This document shows positions 23,573-29,478 of a stretch of 64,000 nucleotides of DNA, piece by piece (the first letter of the stretch is position 1; each line of letters opens with the position of its first letter). Under the pieces are notes generated by a model. It was not told the origin of the DNA. It searched no databases and was given only the letters and a program-made list of their open reading frames with translations. Made by a program: the position numbers and the translations under genes. This stretch comes from Mesoterricola sediminis (GTDB lineage: Bacteria > Acidobacteriota > Holophagae > Holophagales > Holophagaceae). The DNA is taken from the NCBI RefSeq assembly GCF_030295425.1, contig NZ_AP027081.1, forward strand, positions 1-64,000, written 5' to 3'.

Positions 23573-23648
23573 GCCCGGATAGCTCAGTTGGTAGAGCAAT
23601 GGACTGAAAATCCATGTGTCGGCGGTTCAACTCCGTCTCCGGGCACCA
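23573..23648 (+). tRNA. tRNA-Phe (GAA), intact copy with encoded CCA
   Basis: A complete 76-nt cloverleaf: acceptor GCCCGGA pairs with TCCGGGC, the D arm is AGCTCAGTTGGTAGAGC, the anticodon stem-loop ATGGA-CTGAAAA-TCCAT carries GAA, and the T arm contains GGTTCAACTCC. CCA is encoded (23646-23648). It is the attachment site of the downstream integrative element: everything from tRNA position 5 onward is repeated at 27916. Confidence 0.97.
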
Positions 23649-23683
23649 ACAAACCCCTGAATCGCAAGGTTCGGGGGTTTTTC
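23577..23683 (+). repeat. attL: 107-bp direct repeat (tRNA-Phe and terminator)
   Basis: Matches 27916-28022 over 107 bp with a single difference (C at 23665, A at 28004). It runs from tRNA nucleotide 5 through the tRNA terminator. This copy keeps the native acceptor 5' strand and promoter and so is the functional tRNA end. Confidence 0.93.
23651..23682 (+). terminator. Terminator of tRNA-Phe
   Basis: AAACCCCTGAA pairs with TTCGGGGGTTT, followed by a run of T. This terminator lies inside the direct repeat, so a second copy exists at 27990-28021. Confidence 0.85.
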
Positions 23684-24359
23684 ATGTCGGGTCGCACGTC
23701 CTCAAAGAGCCTGTTGATATACCCATAATTCTACGCTTCTGACTGGTCATTCCCTACAAGATTCACTACATCCGGGTCTGGCTGGAACCGCACCAGATAA
23801 TGCTTTCCGTCAGGCAGCACCCACTGGGGAGGGTATTTGCCGGGGGTAAGGAAACGATCCAGAGAAGGCAGGGGTGGTCAACCTTGAAACCGATCTCCCG
23901 CCAGGAGCAGACCGGGGTGGGGTTTTTCTAGAATCCCCGCTTGCGTCCGCCAAAGACCACGGGTGCTTGATTTACCAACCGAGCACCCTCCAGTGGCGAG
24001 ATGGGACATTTGCGGGTGGTCGTGGAACACCATTCCGCCGGGAACGTTTCTACGCCGGAGTCCGGGTCCTCGTGGACTCAAAACAGGCGTTTTAACTCCT
24101 AATTGCCCATACGCCATCAAGTGGTCGGGGAGGCTTCTCTCTGTGCATCGGGTGTCATTTCGGCACATTCGGCATAGGTAAAAGCCTTTGTGCTCCAAGG
24201 CGAAGCCCTCGAATTAGGCGGGGCACCCACTGCTACAGCCGAGAGACGGAAGGGGGATTTCCAGGGGCAGAAGGGCGCTTCAGACGGCTGGTGGTAATCC
24301 ATATGGTCAGAGGGTTGCCCTCCTGACGCCACCCTTCAATGCGCCCGTCAGGAGACCGT
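23684..24359. other. Left end of the element: no intact gene, possible remnant
   Basis: About 680 bp without a convincing gene. On the minus strand, 23731-23877 reads as a 48-codon open frame with protein-like composition (contains VLPDGKHYLVRFQPDPD) ending at a TAG, but it has no start codon and an in-frame TGA at 23878-23880; it may be the tail of a decayed gene. An inverted repeat GGGTGCT...AGCACCC lies at 23961-23988. No excisionase-like gene could be recognised. Confidence 0.4.
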
Positions 24360-25406
24360 ATGACGCCCGAACAGACCCTCGATGAACACTCCCAGCAACC
24401 CGCACCAAAGGAAGATCTGACCGACAAGGTGTCGAAGGCGCTCCAGGAGCATGATGGTTGGCTTCGGAAGACGCCCAGCACAAGCAAGGAGATCGCCGGA
24501 CGCCTCTTCCCTGCGGAGGACAAGCGTCAGGAGGTGGACCGGGGCTTGATTCTCACCATCACCGCTCTGATGTGGGACAACGGCTTTACGCCTTCTTCCC
24601 GGGGCAAGGGGCACAGCCGCTGGTATTGGCGGGAAGGGACCATCCCATCAATGCCTGTGGTGCGGTCAGAGGTGCTCAATCAAGGGCGTACCCTGATTGA
24701 GACCGCGCCGTCTCATCCGGTTGTGAAGCCCATCAAGGTCAAGCAGTATCTTGGGCGACCTCTCACCAGCCGGAAGCGCCGGAAGCCATGGGTGACCGCT
24801 GCTGGGAGTCTTGAGTCCCGGTTGACCATGGCTGCCTTCTATTTGAATGGGTTCAACCACAATGAAGCCGCAATCTTCGACCTGCCGGAAATGACCATGG
24901 CAAAGGTGGTCTGCAACCTGCGCAACTACTTCCGGCTCAATGCACGGCAGACTGCGGAATTGATGATCTCGCTCTTCAACCCCAAAGCCCGTTATCGGTG
25001 GTCAGAGGAGGGCATCTTGCTCACCTGGGAACTGGTGGAAGGGTTCACTCCCTCCCTTGGGCTATCGGACAAGGATGCCGTCGCCAAACACCTGCTGGCT
25101 GACTTGGAAGAGGATGTGATCGACCTGCTAGCCCACACCCTCCCGGGTGGGCGGGTTCCGGTGGAAGACCTCTACCGCCGCTTCAAGGCGTGGAACCCGG
25201 ATGTGGAAACCAATGAGATCGCCTTCGGTCGGGTGGTTACCGCCCTGACCGGCATCAAGAGCAAGTCCTCGAAGGGCAAGCGTTACTACTCGGGCTTCCA
25301 TCTTCCCCTGGTCGCCGAGGAAGCAGCGGCAAGCCCGGTTGTCACCGTCATGGAGCCGAAGGTCTTGGCAGCCGATTGTTCCCCGCAACCTATGAGTGCA
25401 GCTTAG
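24360..25406 (+). CDS. Element-encoded replication-like protein with winged-helix ends, no ATPase
   Basis: A 348-aa protein of no family I can name with certainty. Residues about 30-90 look like a winged helix (TSKEIAGRL, then FTPSSRGKGHSRWYW). The middle (about 185-235) has the pattern FRLNARQTAELMISLFNP followed by RWSEEGILLTWEL, resembling the segment between primase and helicase domains of phage/plasmid primases. The C-terminal part (VPVEDLYRRFKAW, IAFGRVVTALTGI, GKRYYSGFHL; about 262-325) resembles the winged helix that ends D5/P4-type replication helicases. No Walker A motif is present. The ATG at 24360 is chosen because CAGGAG lies five bases upstream. I infer a replication or regulatory protein of the element. 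Confidence 0.6.
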   Translation: MTPEQTLDEHSQQPAPKEDLTDKVSKALQEHDGWLRKTPSTSKEIAGRLFPAEDKRQEVDRGLILTITALMWDNGFTPSSRGKGHSRWYWREGTIPSMPVVRSEVLNQGRTLIETAPSHPVVKPIKVKQYLGRPLTSRKRRKPWVTAAGSLESRLTMAAFYLNGFNHNEAAIFDLPEMTMAKVVCNLRNYFRLNARQTAELMISLFNPKARYRWSEEGILLTWELVEGFTPSLGLSDKDAVAKHLLADLEEDVIDLLAHTLPGGRVPVEDLYRRFKAWNPDVETNEIAFGRVVTALTGIKSKSSKGKRYYSGFHLPLVAEEAAASPVVTVMEPKVLAADCSPQPMSAA

Positions 25407-25453
25407 CCATCGGTTGAGGGGACACAGATTCCCCTATGCTTTGTAAGAATTGA

Positions 25454-26482
25454 TCAAGGACTCTGCTCTCCAATTTCAAAATGCCCTCGAACAGAGATCA
25501 TCCCTCTGACCATTGGTGGTGCACCCGGGCATTGATCTGGCTTGAATTCCCACATAAGTGCACTTTTCAGCACGCTGATGGCTAATTGCGGTGGTCCAGA
25601 AATATACCTCGCGCACCTTACTTTCCCGGAATTCGTGATTGCAACCTCGATTGACAGCAAACCTACAATTCTTGCAACCTTAGCGAGTGGAGGATATGGG
25701 GGCAAATTAATCAAACTTCGCCGATCCAGCACGGTCTGAAGTGAAATCGTGGGAAGGGATTCAAAGTCGACGGTCTCTGAGCCTGTTGCACACTCCTGGT
25801 GTTTGAAGGAAGTTGGCTTGATGGCTGGTTCTTCAGGGACCACCATGAAGGCATATCGACTTTGAAACCATGGCACCAACTCGTCATGTGGTGTAAGAAC
25901 TGCTCCGGTGGCGAGGTCGATCCGTAATGGTGGGCACTCAGTCCCAGGCTGGATTTCTGGGCGCAATTGTCCGTGAGGAGTTAATAGGAGTTCTTGTGGT
26001 CCTTCGTTGATTGAGGCGGTCCAATAGGGTGCATGTGTCCATTTGGGGTAATATCCAAGTTCTGCCCTTGGAAGGATATTGGTCAAGTAATTCCATTTGA
26101 TCATGACGCCATCATTACGATAGATGGCAATTTCAAACTCGTCGCGGAGTTCATAGTTTCTCATGCCGATGGCAGCAGCGTATCGACCCGTATTTGATAC
26201 CAATAATTGGGCGGGAAGCCTTCTGATGGAGAAATCAGATTCGCCGAGCAAGCGCTTTCCCCACCATCGCTTCTGGAAAAACCTCCCACGCCAAGGTGTT
26301 TCCATATCCTTTCTGGCATTATAGCTAACTCGCAAACCGGTCGTTTTGTCCGGAGAATAAAAATACAGCTTTGAGGGGACCTGATCGCTGGAATTCAGTG
26401 GTGGAGTTGCTTTGACAAAGAACGCGGTTGGCACAAGCAATAGCACCAGCAAGACTCTGTAGATGGATCTCAACCGGCTCAT
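25454..26482 (-). CDS. Exported TonB C-terminal domain protein, low GC
   Basis: A 342-aa protein with an N-terminal hydrophobic signal or anchor (IYRVLLVLLLVPTAFFV), an uncharacterised middle domain with segments such as LLVSNTGRYAAAIGM that recall beta-propeller strands, and a C-terminal TonB-like domain (LPPYPPLAKVARIVGLLSIE ... ALMWEFKPD, about 262-340). TonB-C domains couple inner-membrane energy to outer-membrane receptors, but stand-alone versions like this one are of unclear role. Codon use and base composition are far more AT-rich than in neighbouring chromosomal genes, indicating foreign origin. The ATG at 26482 follows GAGG; a TTG 27 bases further up is less likely. It reads toward the replication-like gene (tail to tail). 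Confidence 0.75.
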   Translation of the reverse strand: MSRLRSIYRVLLVLLLVPTAFFVKATPPLNSSDQVPSKLYFYSPDKTTGLRVSYNARKDMETPWRGRFFQKRWWGKRLLGESDFSIRRLPAQLLVSNTGRYAAAIGMRNYELRDEFEIAIYRNDGVMIKWNYLTNILPRAELGYYPKWTHAPYWTASINEGPQELLLTPHGQLRPEIQPGTECPPLRIDLATGAVLTPHDELVPWFQSRYAFMVVPEEPAIKPTSFKHQECATGSETVDFESLPTISLQTVLDRRSLINLPPYPPLAKVARIVGLLSIEVAITNSGKVRCARYISGPPQLAISVLKSALMWEFKPDQCPGAPPMVRGMISVRGHFEIGEQSP

Positions 26483-26690
26483 CGGGATCGCCTCTTTCTC
26501 GACCAACAACTTGGGGAATGGATCAGTACTGATGGAATATCTCTCTGCAAACGCTACTACTCGTTCCCATCCATTACAATGTCACCCCCTCTGTGGAATC
26601 CAAGGACATGTCTCGGAAACGCCTTGGCGTGCCCTGATGACTCAGGCAGGTCTTATCTCCCACCTGAGTCCACCGAGGCGTCAAGGCTGG

Positions 26691-27773
26691 CTAGACAGCT
26701 GCTGTGGGGGTGCCTGGAGGGGCAGTGCTAAGCCCCAGGTACCTTCCGAGCCCCTCTTGCGCATCCCTGCGGGCATCCAGTGTCTGCTCGATATATCCCC
26801 AGAGGGTCTTGAAGTCCTTGTGCCCCATCATAGTCTGCAACTCGCTGAGGGGCGTTCCAGACGCAGCATGAAGGCTGGCGAAGCTTGCCCTCAGGCGGTG
26901 GGGTGTGAGGTGTCCCATCCCAAGTTCCTTGGCGGCTGCCATGAGGGGTTTGCGGAGGAACCCGGGGCAGTGAGGCTTGCCTTCACTGGTGGGGAACACC
27001 CACTCACTGAGGGTTCCCTTTGGCATCGCCTGGAGGGCAGTCCACAGCCAGGACGGGATGGGCAGCACCCGCGCCTCCTTGCCCTTGGCGCGTCCCACGG
27101 TATAGGTCCTCTGCTCAAGGTCGAGCCACTCCCACCTCATCCCTGCGACCTCGCTGGATCGGCATCCCAGCCCCAGCATGACTCGGACCATCACACGGAC
27201 CTGGGGGTTGTGGGTGGAGCGGTCAATAGCAGCAAGGAACTCTGATACTCGGCTGGCAGGGACGGTAGGGCGCGGTTTCCTCTGGACCCGCAGCAAATCC
27301 ACCTTGAGCGCCTTCCGCAGCCTCCCGCGCTTCACGGCGAAGTTCAGGAGGGTCCTGAGGGTCACCAGGACGTTGTTGGTGAAGACCTGGGAACGCCCCG
27401 CCCCGAGTAGCGCATTGCGCAACTGGTCCACTTGGGAATCATCAATCTTGTCAATGCGCGTCTTCCCAAGGCGGGGTTCCAGCCAGATCCGCCAGTGGGC
27501 AGACAGGGACGCAAGGTATAGAGGGCTGACCGAGGGTGTCTTGGATGCCAGGAATTCCTGATGGACCTCCTCCAGCGTCAAGGTCTTCCGGGTGTCCTTG
27601 AGGGCGAGTTTGCCCCGGGCGATGTCCAGGCGCAGCTGGTTGACGAACAGGGTCGCGGTCTTGAGGTCAGAGGTCCGGGTGGAACCCTGGTAGCGCACCC
27701 CGTCCACCAGGACGTCGTAGTGCCAGATGGTCCCGCCTCGCTTGACCAGTCCAGGGGTTTTGGTTCGTGCCAT
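26691..27773 (-). CDS. int: Tyrosine recombinase / integrase of the tRNA-Phe element
   Basis: Site-specific recombinase that integrates and excises the element. The 360-aa protein has an N-terminal arm-binding domain (RGGTIWHYDVLVDGVRYQGS), a SAM-like core-binding domain (about 65-160), and the catalytic domain with the full set: Arg in GLGCRSSEVAGMRW, HRLRASFAS (HxxR), the second His in MMGHKDFKTLWGYIEQ, and the nucleophilic Tyr in the same segment. The ATG at 27773 is chosen by homology-like start (MARTKTPGLVKRGG); an ORF extension to 27800 has no support. It lies about 140 bp from attR and is transcribed away from it, the usual geometry for tRNA-integrating elements. Confidence 0.95.
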   Translation of the reverse strand: MARTKTPGLVKRGGTIWHYDVLVDGVRYQGSTRTSDLKTATLFVNQLRLDIARGKLALKDTRKTLTLEEVHQEFLASKTPSVSPLYLASLSAHWRIWLEPRLGKTRIDKIDDSQVDQLRNALLGAGRSQVFTNNVLVTLRTLLNFAVKRGRLRKALKVDLLRVQRKPRPTVPASRVSEFLAAIDRSTHNPQVRVMVRVMLGLGCRSSEVAGMRWEWLDLEQRTYTVGRAKGKEARVLPIPSWLWTALQAMPKGTLSEWVFPTSEGKPHCPGFLRKPLMAAAKELGMGHLTPHRLRASFASLHAASGTPLSELQTMMGHKDFKTLWGYIEQTLDARRDAQEGLGRYLGLSTAPPGTPTAAV

Positions 27774-27915
27774 TGCGTCCTCCGAATGGAGGCGCTTCAA
27801 GGGGTGCGAGGGACCAATTCCCTACAAATTCCCTACATGGCAGTCCTGGGCACGGTCGGGGATCGAATCACTGATGACCAAGTGGAGTATTCAGGGTGGT
27901 TGCTGGTCACAACTG

Positions 27916-28022
27916 GGATAGCTCAGTTGGTAGAGCAATGGACTGAAAATCCATGTGTCGGCGGTTCAACTCCGTCTCCGGGCACCAACAAACCCCTGAA
28001 TCGAAAGGTTCGGGGGTTTTTC
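27916..28022 (+). repeat. attR: partial tRNA-Phe copy and terminator
   Basis: 107-bp copy of attL lacking the native first four tRNA bases. The acceptor 5' strand reads ACTGGGA, giving an A-C mismatch at the end and a G-G mismatch at pair 4 against TCCGGGC, so it is not expected to make a functional tRNA. A terminator copy is included. Confidence 0.92.
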
Positions 28023-28038: not shown

Positions 28039-29478
28039 CTACTGCCCCCCACCAAGCTCTCCTCGACTGAGCCAGTAGCAGGCCAGGGGGGCCGGGATCT
28101 TGAGGATCGGCGTGCCCTGGAGGTCGGTGATCCCGAAATCGGCCATCTCGCGGGTCACCACGTAGCCGCGGCGCACCTGTCTTTCCTGACAGAACCGGGC
28201 CAGCCCCTTCAGATCCCGGGCGTCCGTGTGCTGGGACCGGTATTTAACCTCGAAGGGCACCAACTCGCCGCCGATGTCGGCGATGATGTCCACTTCCACG
28301 TCTTTCTTGCCCCGCCAGTAGGAGAAGCCGATGCTCTGCCGGTAGAAGCGCGTGAAGACGTGCTTGAAGAAGGCCGTCTCCACGGCTCGTCCGAGGGCAG
28401 GGCCATCCTCCAGCAGGGCCTTGCCCTTGAGCAGGACGCTGGGCGCGATGGCGGCGTCGGCCAGATAGATCTTGGACCGGCCCCGGAGCACCTCCTTGCC
28501 GTAGCCATAAGGCTTGAGCTGGTAGATCAGGTGGGTGGACTCCAGCAGGTCGATGAAGTTGCTCACGGTGGGGCGCTTCAGGCCGAGGCTGCTGCAAAGC
28601 TGGGGAAGATCCAACAGCTCTCCATCGTGCAGACACAGGTAAAGGAAGGTGTGTTCCAGCTCCACGATGCGGCGGACCCCGAACAGGGCCGTCATGTCCC
28701 GCTTGAGCACCTTGTCCACGATGTCCTCCCGCAGGAGTTTCTGGGCCAGGGTCATGGACTCGGTCAGGGCGCACTGGGGGAAGCCACCCCGAAGGAGGTA
28801 GTCGTGAAAGTTCCCCACCAGCGGGACGGCGTCGGCACCCACCCTCTGGAAGTCCGCAGGCTTCCAGTCGAACAGGGATTGCAGGGAGCCGACCTCGGGC
28901 AACGGGGGCTCGCCGATTCGCTTGATCTGCAGGAACTCGAAGAAGGAGAGGGTGGCCAGTTGCAGGGTGTGCCAGCGCCCCACCCCGGATTCCTGGCCCT
29001 GGAGGGTCAGGGGGGTTGCCGACCCGGTGACGGCGATCCGCTTGCGTTTGTCGAAGTCCACCTGATGCTTCAACCAGGTCTGCCAATCCTTGGTGGCCTG
29101 GATCTCGTCCAGGAACAGGTACTCCACGCCATCGGCGGCGGGCTCCACTTCGCGCCAGAGCTTGATGACGCCATCCAGGCCATGGAGCTTGAGAAGGGGG
29201 TGGTCGAAGGTGACGTAGAGGATATTGCTGGGAGGCACCCCCGACTTCAGCAGTCGGTCGATGCACTGGAGGAAGAGGGTGGTCTTCCCGATCTGTCGCG
29301 CACCGGCCAGGAGCAGGGCCCGGCCAACCGGAGGGGCCTGCATCCAGTCGAACAACTCCCCAAAGGCAGCCCGCTGCCATGTCGGCAGGTCGGGCATCCC
29401 GGTGCCGGTCCACCAGGGGTTGTATTGCCGGAGCACGGATGTGAGTTCAGCGTGGGTTCCGATCACCGCAGCCTCCAA
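28039..29478 (-). CDS. AAA ATPase with DUF4143 domain
   Basis: A 479-aa protein of the widespread AAA_14/DUF4143 group. It has Walker A in LLLAGARQIGKTTLF (about 54-68), a Walker B in VEYLFLDEIQ (about 117-126), the sensor region RKRIAVTGSATPL, a winged helix (LGLKRPTVSNFIDLLESTHL) and a C-terminal DUF4143 part containing a restriction-nuclease-like pattern (VEVDIIADIGGELVPFEVKYR). The family is abundant, often near mobile DNA, and its role is poorly known. It lies just outside attR of the integrative element. Its upstream region is AT-rich. It may belong to an older insertion at the same hot spot; this is inference. Confidence 0.85.
   Translation of the reverse strand: MEAAVIGTHAELTSVLRQYNPWWTGTGMPDLPTWQRAAFGELFDWMQAPPVGRALLLAGARQIGKTTLFLQCIDRLLKSGVPPSNILYVTFDHPLLKLHGLDGVIKLWREVEPAADGVEYLFLDEIQATKDWQTWLKHQVDFDKRKRIAVTGSATPLTLQGQESGVGRWHTLQLATLSFFEFLQIKRIGEPPLPEVGSLQSLFDWKPADFQRVGADAVPLVGNFHDYLLRGGFPQCALTESMTLAQKLLREDIVDKVLKRDMTALFGVRRIVELEHTFLYLCLHDGELLDLPQLCSSLGLKRPTVSNFIDLLESTHLIYQLKPYGYGKEVLRGRSKIYLADAAIAPSVLLKGKALLEDGPALGRAVETAFFKHVFTRFYRQSIGFSYWRGKKDVEVDIIADIGGELVPFEVKYRSQHTDARDLKGLARFCQERQVRRGYVVTREMADFGITDLQGTPILKIPAPLACYWLSRGELGGGQ

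Follow-up and report, generated by a model that had tools for sequence, protein, structure and literature searches.

The window (the whole stretch of DNA analyzed here, 64,000 nucleotides) contains two tRNA-Phe(gaa) genes, which ARAGORN placed at 23573-23648 and 27912-27987. A repeat search returned one family, a direct repeat of 107 nt at 23577-23683 and 27916-28022 with a spacing of 4339 nt. The two copies are 99% identical and run from nt 5 of the tRNA to the end of the terminator; the repeat search and ARAGORN together confirmed the extent and the single mismatch given in the first-pass annotation. The mismatch (C23665/A28004) falls within the terminator loop, and tRNA nt 1 to 4, which lie outside the repeat, read GCCC versus ACTG. 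A chance origin of this repeat is out of the question. The GC content was 57% between the repeats, versus 69 to 71% in the flanks, and 70% in the whole window. No third copy of tRNA-Phe was found in the single-contig genome (4.52 Mb, 100% complete). The features of the locus are the following.

23573..23648, forward strand: proximal tRNA-Phe(GAA), intact (ARAGORN; Rfam score, 72.8 bits)
23577..23683, forward strand: left copy of the 107-nt repeat (att), from tRNA nt 5 to the terminator end (repeat search)
23651..23680, forward strand: terminator hairpin and T run, the copy derived from the element (inverted repeat; fold, -20.4 kcal/mol)
23749..23770, forward strand: putative left arm-type site, tandem direct repeat ATTCCCTACAAGATTCACTACA, at the same place in relatives
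24339..25406, forward strand: 355-aa protein (ORF355), C-terminal half resembling primase C-terminal winged-helix domains; ATPase not detected
25454..26509, reverse strand: 351-aa cargo protein with a signal-like N terminus and a weakly TonB_C-like C terminus (TonB_C, E value of 1.6e-3, below the cutoff)
26691..27773, reverse strand: tyrosine integrase, divergent from the distal tRNA (PF00589, E value of 6.8e-24; phrog_1, 1.3e-56)
27817..27837, forward strand: putative right arm-type site, tandem direct repeat ATTCCCTACAAATTCCCTACA (repeat analysis)
27912..27987, forward strand: distal tRNA-Phe copy (Rfam score, 57.1 bits; fold, -20.6 versus -30.1 kcal/mol; promoter score, 1.86)
27916..28022, forward strand: right copy of the 107-nt repeat (att; repeat search)

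The 4.3-kb segment is probably a mobile element inserted at the sole tRNA-Phe gene, with an integrase of a little-noticed lineage whose members usually leave a second full-length tRNA in place of the common half-copy. Direct repeats derived from the tRNA lie at both ends, and one functional tRNA has been rebuilt (ARAGORN, repeat search, and Rfam). The repeat and the PF00589 match bear out the earlier description of a small, integrase-borne element that carries nearly the whole tRNA and its terminator. An AAA_14/DUF4143 ATPase is encoded immediately after the element, at 28039-29478.

The PF00589 match of the integrase spans profile positions 6 to 167 of 172, and residues R214, H301, R304, H327, and Y336 are invariant (alignment A1), indicating a complete catalytic domain. 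The most likely start is the ATG at 27773, as in relatives; the listed open reading frame (ORF) extends to 27800. The three genes named in the first-pass annotation fared unequally: the integrase was supported by both PF00589 and phrog_1, the TonB_C match stayed below the cutoff, and the replication-like gene gave only weak primase signals. ORF355 had no match in Pfam, and the search of its profile against solved structures gave nothing convincing. It weakly resembles the C-terminal end of phage primases (phrog_1156, E value of 0.059; primase/Prim-Pol folds, E values of 0.02 to 0.1), and its structure model is confident at about residues 150 to 330 only. On this basis, the label "replication-like without an ATPase" is plausible with weak support, as both the resemblance and the modeled region are limited. 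The C-terminal half (about residues 143 to 330) is common to proteins of related elements (G021, G074, and the Arg element of G000) and also occurs in other regions of Holophagaceae genomes. At one such locus (L090; G001, 4.820-4.840 Mb), two tandem units about 91 to 92% alike each carry an ORF355 homologue; other integrases are nearby, there is no tRNA, and the units represent a different element family sharing the replication-like gene. A Prim-Pol identity was also considered for the replication genes of other elements and was rejected, as only the 411-aa protein of the G000 Met element matched PF09250.

The 351-aa cargo protein had no match in PADLOC, and no capsid, packaging, or known defense genes were found in the element with Pfam, PHROGs, and PADLOC. 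The sister element at tRNA-Phe in G021 (L077, 7865-18775; 19 kb) encodes type I restriction-modification, SIR2 (PDC-S65), caspase-like, and TIR proteins. The three ORFs of the window element matched none of the packaging or capsid-remodeling hallmarks of PICI/P4-like phage satellites in Pfam or PHROGs. The term "satellite-type" is therefore unsupported, since packaging, capsid, and helper-dependence genes were not found among these ORFs, and so is "minimal," since 4.3 kb falls inside the 1.8- to 19-kb range of the related elements.

The genes upstream of the proximal tRNA-Phe are syntenic with those of relatives, and this copy retains the host promoter region. With an exchange inside the tRNA, it would consist of the host 5' part joined to the 3' part of the element. 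The distal copy is called full length and matches the proximal one over nt 5 to 76; it is not the tDNA fragment of a classic Islander island. Two positions of its acceptor stem are unpaired (A1xC72 and G4xG69), and promoter scoring found no -10 box upstream. For these two reasons the distal tRNA-Phe is probably silent or nonfunctional, which leaves the proximal copy as the one likely to function. The earlier expectation that termination and processing are kept "whichever copy is used" does not agree with the lower Rfam score of the distal copy (57.1 versus 72.8 bits), its unpaired acceptor positions, and the missing -10 box.

Tandem repeats of 11 to 12 bp occur at both element ends in the window and in nearly all relatives, each with its own version, and in related elements the two ends often have identical repeat words. 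The distance from the proximal tRNA to the start of the left arm is +91 to +118 nt; the right arm precedes the distal tRNA by 51 to 54, 93 to 101, or 131 nt (window and relatives). These predicted sites flank the core in a lambda-type arm-site layout, and they may be bound by the integrase. In G036, a tRNA-Phe is followed by DNA matching the left end of the window element, including the arm-site stretch (L091, 7854-8054); a second tRNA-Phe was not found there, and the locus is possibly a remnant without a distal end.

Integrases of this lineage were present in 17 of the 77 genomes of the family Holophagaceae (Geothrix and others), and the core of the lineage has the integrase divergent from the neighboring tRNA copy. 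A full-length tRNA was found at both ends of 11 of the 14 resolved elements, the window element included. These comprise four Phe, three initiator Met, one Pro, two Thr(tgt), and one Asn element. The remaining three carry a classic truncated distal copy (one Thr-cgt and two Arg-ccg), and two additional unpaired cases are truncated. Five further integrases adjoin a full tRNA whose partner would lie beyond the contig or the fetched region; these were kept out of the 14 as ambiguous. The Phe repeats span nt 5 to +31 in the window, -6 to +17 in G021, -18 to 76 in G076, and -16 to 76 in G025. The Met repeats span -9 to +4, -6 to +4, and -7 to +1, the Pro repeat -7 to +1, the Thr repeats 1 to 74 and -3 to 74, and the Asn repeat -25 to +3. 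The Met target bears the sequence marks of the initiator tRNA (C1xU72 and GGG/CCC), which is present as one full copy in element-free genomes and as two in three element-bearing genomes.

For comparison, the same genomes supplied 40 loci with PF00589 integrases from outside the lineage as a control. Among the 15 of these integrases with an adjoining tRNA piece, 14 left 3' fragments, most starting at nt 26 to 32, and one has a full tRNA directly at the integrase. This bears out the earlier statement that most tRNA-integrating elements carry the 3' half or less. The difference between the lineage (11 full and 3 truncated pairs) and the strict control count was significant (Fisher P = 1.2e-4), as it was when two further control loci with a full tRNA hundreds of bases away were counted as full (P = 8e-4), in a sample that is not phylogenetically independent because the Phe elements form one clade and the Arg-ccg elements likewise. 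Whole-tRNA duplication is a general trait of this integrase lineage, which the first-pass annotation had overlooked along with the arm-type sites at both ends.

Two further kinds of loci were observed in these genomes. In G035, two full tRNA-Thr(tgt) genes with 76 identical nucleotides lie 3.7 kb apart with a left arm site present (L239, 2287000-2294500) and no recognizable integrase; this pair is probably a decayed member of the lineage. The locus of the initiator tRNA-Met, both in the window's own genome (L082, 3.983-4.002 Mb) and in G001 (L089, 4.40-4.42 Mb), is a hotspot of insertion: a full-length pair stands in tandem with at least one older 3' fragment (29-77 or 28-76). In the own genome, a classic 29-77 fragment lies beside the full-length pair. 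Searches of plasmid and phage records for the integrase returned distant relatives only (best, 35%), and no tRNA was found near the integrase in viral contig relatives of 33 to 35% identity.

Empty sites were found for two of the related elements. The joined outer flanks of the G036 Thr element form a contiguous sequence with a single tRNA in six Geothrix genomes, and those of the G008 Asn element were found unbroken, with a single tRNA, in G025. For the window element, only one tRNA-Phe was found per genome in genus relatives, and the 4.3-kb body is absent from that gene, in keeping with the insertion first proposed. Its empty site was not found in these relatives, as there is no synteny on the right side of tRNA-Phe; none of the genus relatives checked has the right-flank gene (484 aa) close to tRNA-Phe, indicating that this side was rearranged or struck by other insertions. 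At one syntenic Geothrix locus, tRNA-Thr(tgt) occurs with two very different bodies (L221, L224, L225, and L226 versus L215 to L219). The differences lie in the acceptor, anticodon, and T stems, and the flanks are conserved, as though one tRNA gene had been exchanged for another.

The locus is likely to have arisen when the tyrosine integrase of an integrative element inserted that element into the sole tRNA-Phe gene, with a nearly complete tRNA as attP and a crossover in the anticodon loop. The order in attP would be arm sites, tRNA 5' half, anticodon loop, 3' half, terminator, and arm sites, and recombination in the loop would swap the tRNA halves. The proximal tRNA would keep the host promoter and gain the 3' half and terminator of the element, and the distal tRNA would combine the 5' half of the element with the 3' half and terminator of the host. 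Most elements of the lineage have kept a matching 5' half, which gives two full-length tRNAs. The window element may still be mobile at present.

The position of the exchange can be narrowed by other members of the lineage. In the Thr case, the distal copy has the host-encoded CCA and the DNA downstream of it, and the proximal copy terminates in CGG, which places the exchange 5' of nt 75. Truncated members start at nt 28 to 33 and share their arm geometry with full members, suggesting an exchange at or past the anticodon stem, and sister integrases differ in state, L094 being truncated and L105 full length but unpaired. Given the shared geometry, these starts, and the sisters of unlike state, the anticodon loop is most likely the best single crossover site for all members. 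It is also the class A site, one of the two crossover classes listed by Islander (PMC4383910), and the site reported for SSV1 (PMC8371274). A plain anticodon-loop exchange does leave one observation unexplained without gene conversion or recent capture, namely, that in G008, G076, and G025 the 5' identity extends to -16 to -25 and follows host-specific alleles. A crossover located at the 5' end of the tRNA or slightly upstream of it, by which the element replaces the whole tRNA body and terminator on the proximal side and the distal copy is the original host gene behind element DNA, would account for the match of both tRNA bodies and for identity that in most pairs extends as far as -25 to -6 and in some tracks host alleles. 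The repeats, however, begin at nt 5 in the window and at nt 1 in the G036 Thr element, and sister integrases with the same arm-to-tRNA geometry start at nt 28 to 33. These boundaries and truncated sisters disfavor the 5'-end crossover, which we consider unlikely. A plain tandem duplication with a coincidental integrase nearby would explain the presence of two tRNA genes and nothing more, whereas integrase-linked full tRNA copies at five amino acid identities, paired arm sites, and empty sites were found; such an origin is extremely improbable.

Within the model of an anticodon-loop crossover, the reason for keeping the 5' half can be read in two ways. In 9 of 10 pairs (the G070 row was left out), nt 1 to 27 are identical (27/27), while the DNA at -60 to -31 is near chance level. 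The distal copy has the same Rfam score as the proximal one in 8 of 10 pairs, indicating structurally intact distal copies. A -10 box resembling those of host tRNA genes lies ahead of 8 of the 15 full copies and 2 of the 19 truncated ones (P = 0.016). Some of these 15 have no paired copy and may be those of the host; among the ten pairs, a strong and well-placed box was present in four only. As judged from these sequence features, the intact distal copies and -10 boxes mildly favor selection for a second working tRNA. Tentatively, the lineage may use a complete tRNA gene, with its terminator and in some cases its promoter, as attP and keep the 5' half by selection for tRNA function. After integration, an essential tRNA that is otherwise present once, the initiator included, would then have two working copies, and such elements would be missed by the standard catalogue.

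An equally tentative reading, with the same crossover, is that the 5' half is functionless, either left over from recent target capture or kept identical through gene conversion between the paired copies, and is decaying, with the truncated members as the old state. The stem-breaking changes in the window and G001 copies, the unlike state of the sister integrases, and the scattered 5' boundaries among elements are consistent with such decay. The 5' identity into the promoter with host alleles in G008, G076, and G025 is likewise what gene conversion or recent capture would be expected to produce, which counts against selection. A functionless 5' half is, on the other hand, difficult to reconcile with the near-uniform identity over nt 1 to 27 next to chance-level upstream DNA, with the enrichment of -10 boxes ahead of full copies, and with a whole 5' half common to three Met elements that have integrases of about 50% identity. 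Truncated members were also examined for 5' halves left over from a former target, but only G013 resembled tRNA-Arg, and not significantly (P = 0.095).

If a whole-tRNA attP is a stable strategy, integrative elements directly alter tRNA gene copy number, and catalogues that require a tRNA fragment undercount islands. A lineage with full and truncated sisters of one arm geometry also offers a natural test of tight integrase-tRNA linkage.

Integration of tyrosine integrase elements into tRNA genes is textbook knowledge. Phage HP1, SLP1, and phage T12 have long att cores, with identity blocks of about 100 to 180 bp over tRNA genes; to our knowledge, these are isolated cases, whereas the present lineage shows whole-tRNA identity repeatedly and at several tRNA identities. 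No paper describing whole-tRNA att sites as a lineage trait was found in the open-access literature, where absence proves little; within that literature, the novel aspect is a lineage with whole-tRNA cores as the rule. Like Islander-class islands, the window element has a tRNA target, an integrase at one end, a regenerated proximal tRNA, and direct repeats at both ends, but those islands leave a tDNA fragment and the window element leaves a full-length tRNA (PMC4383910). The element is probably absent from an Islander-type catalogue, because the filter rejects hits inside full-length tRNA genes (PMC4383910). The phages of tRNA-dependent lysogeny also couple integration at a tRNA with an element-borne complete tRNA, but their att core spans about 10 bp, and instead of a rebuilt host tRNA there is a separate phage tRNA gene that complements it (PMC10865867); in the window element, the tRNA itself serves as att site, and the host gene is restored. 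Finally, archaeal pTN3-like integrases use only the 5' half of the tRNA gene as attB (PMC8371274), whereas the lineage of the window carries both halves.
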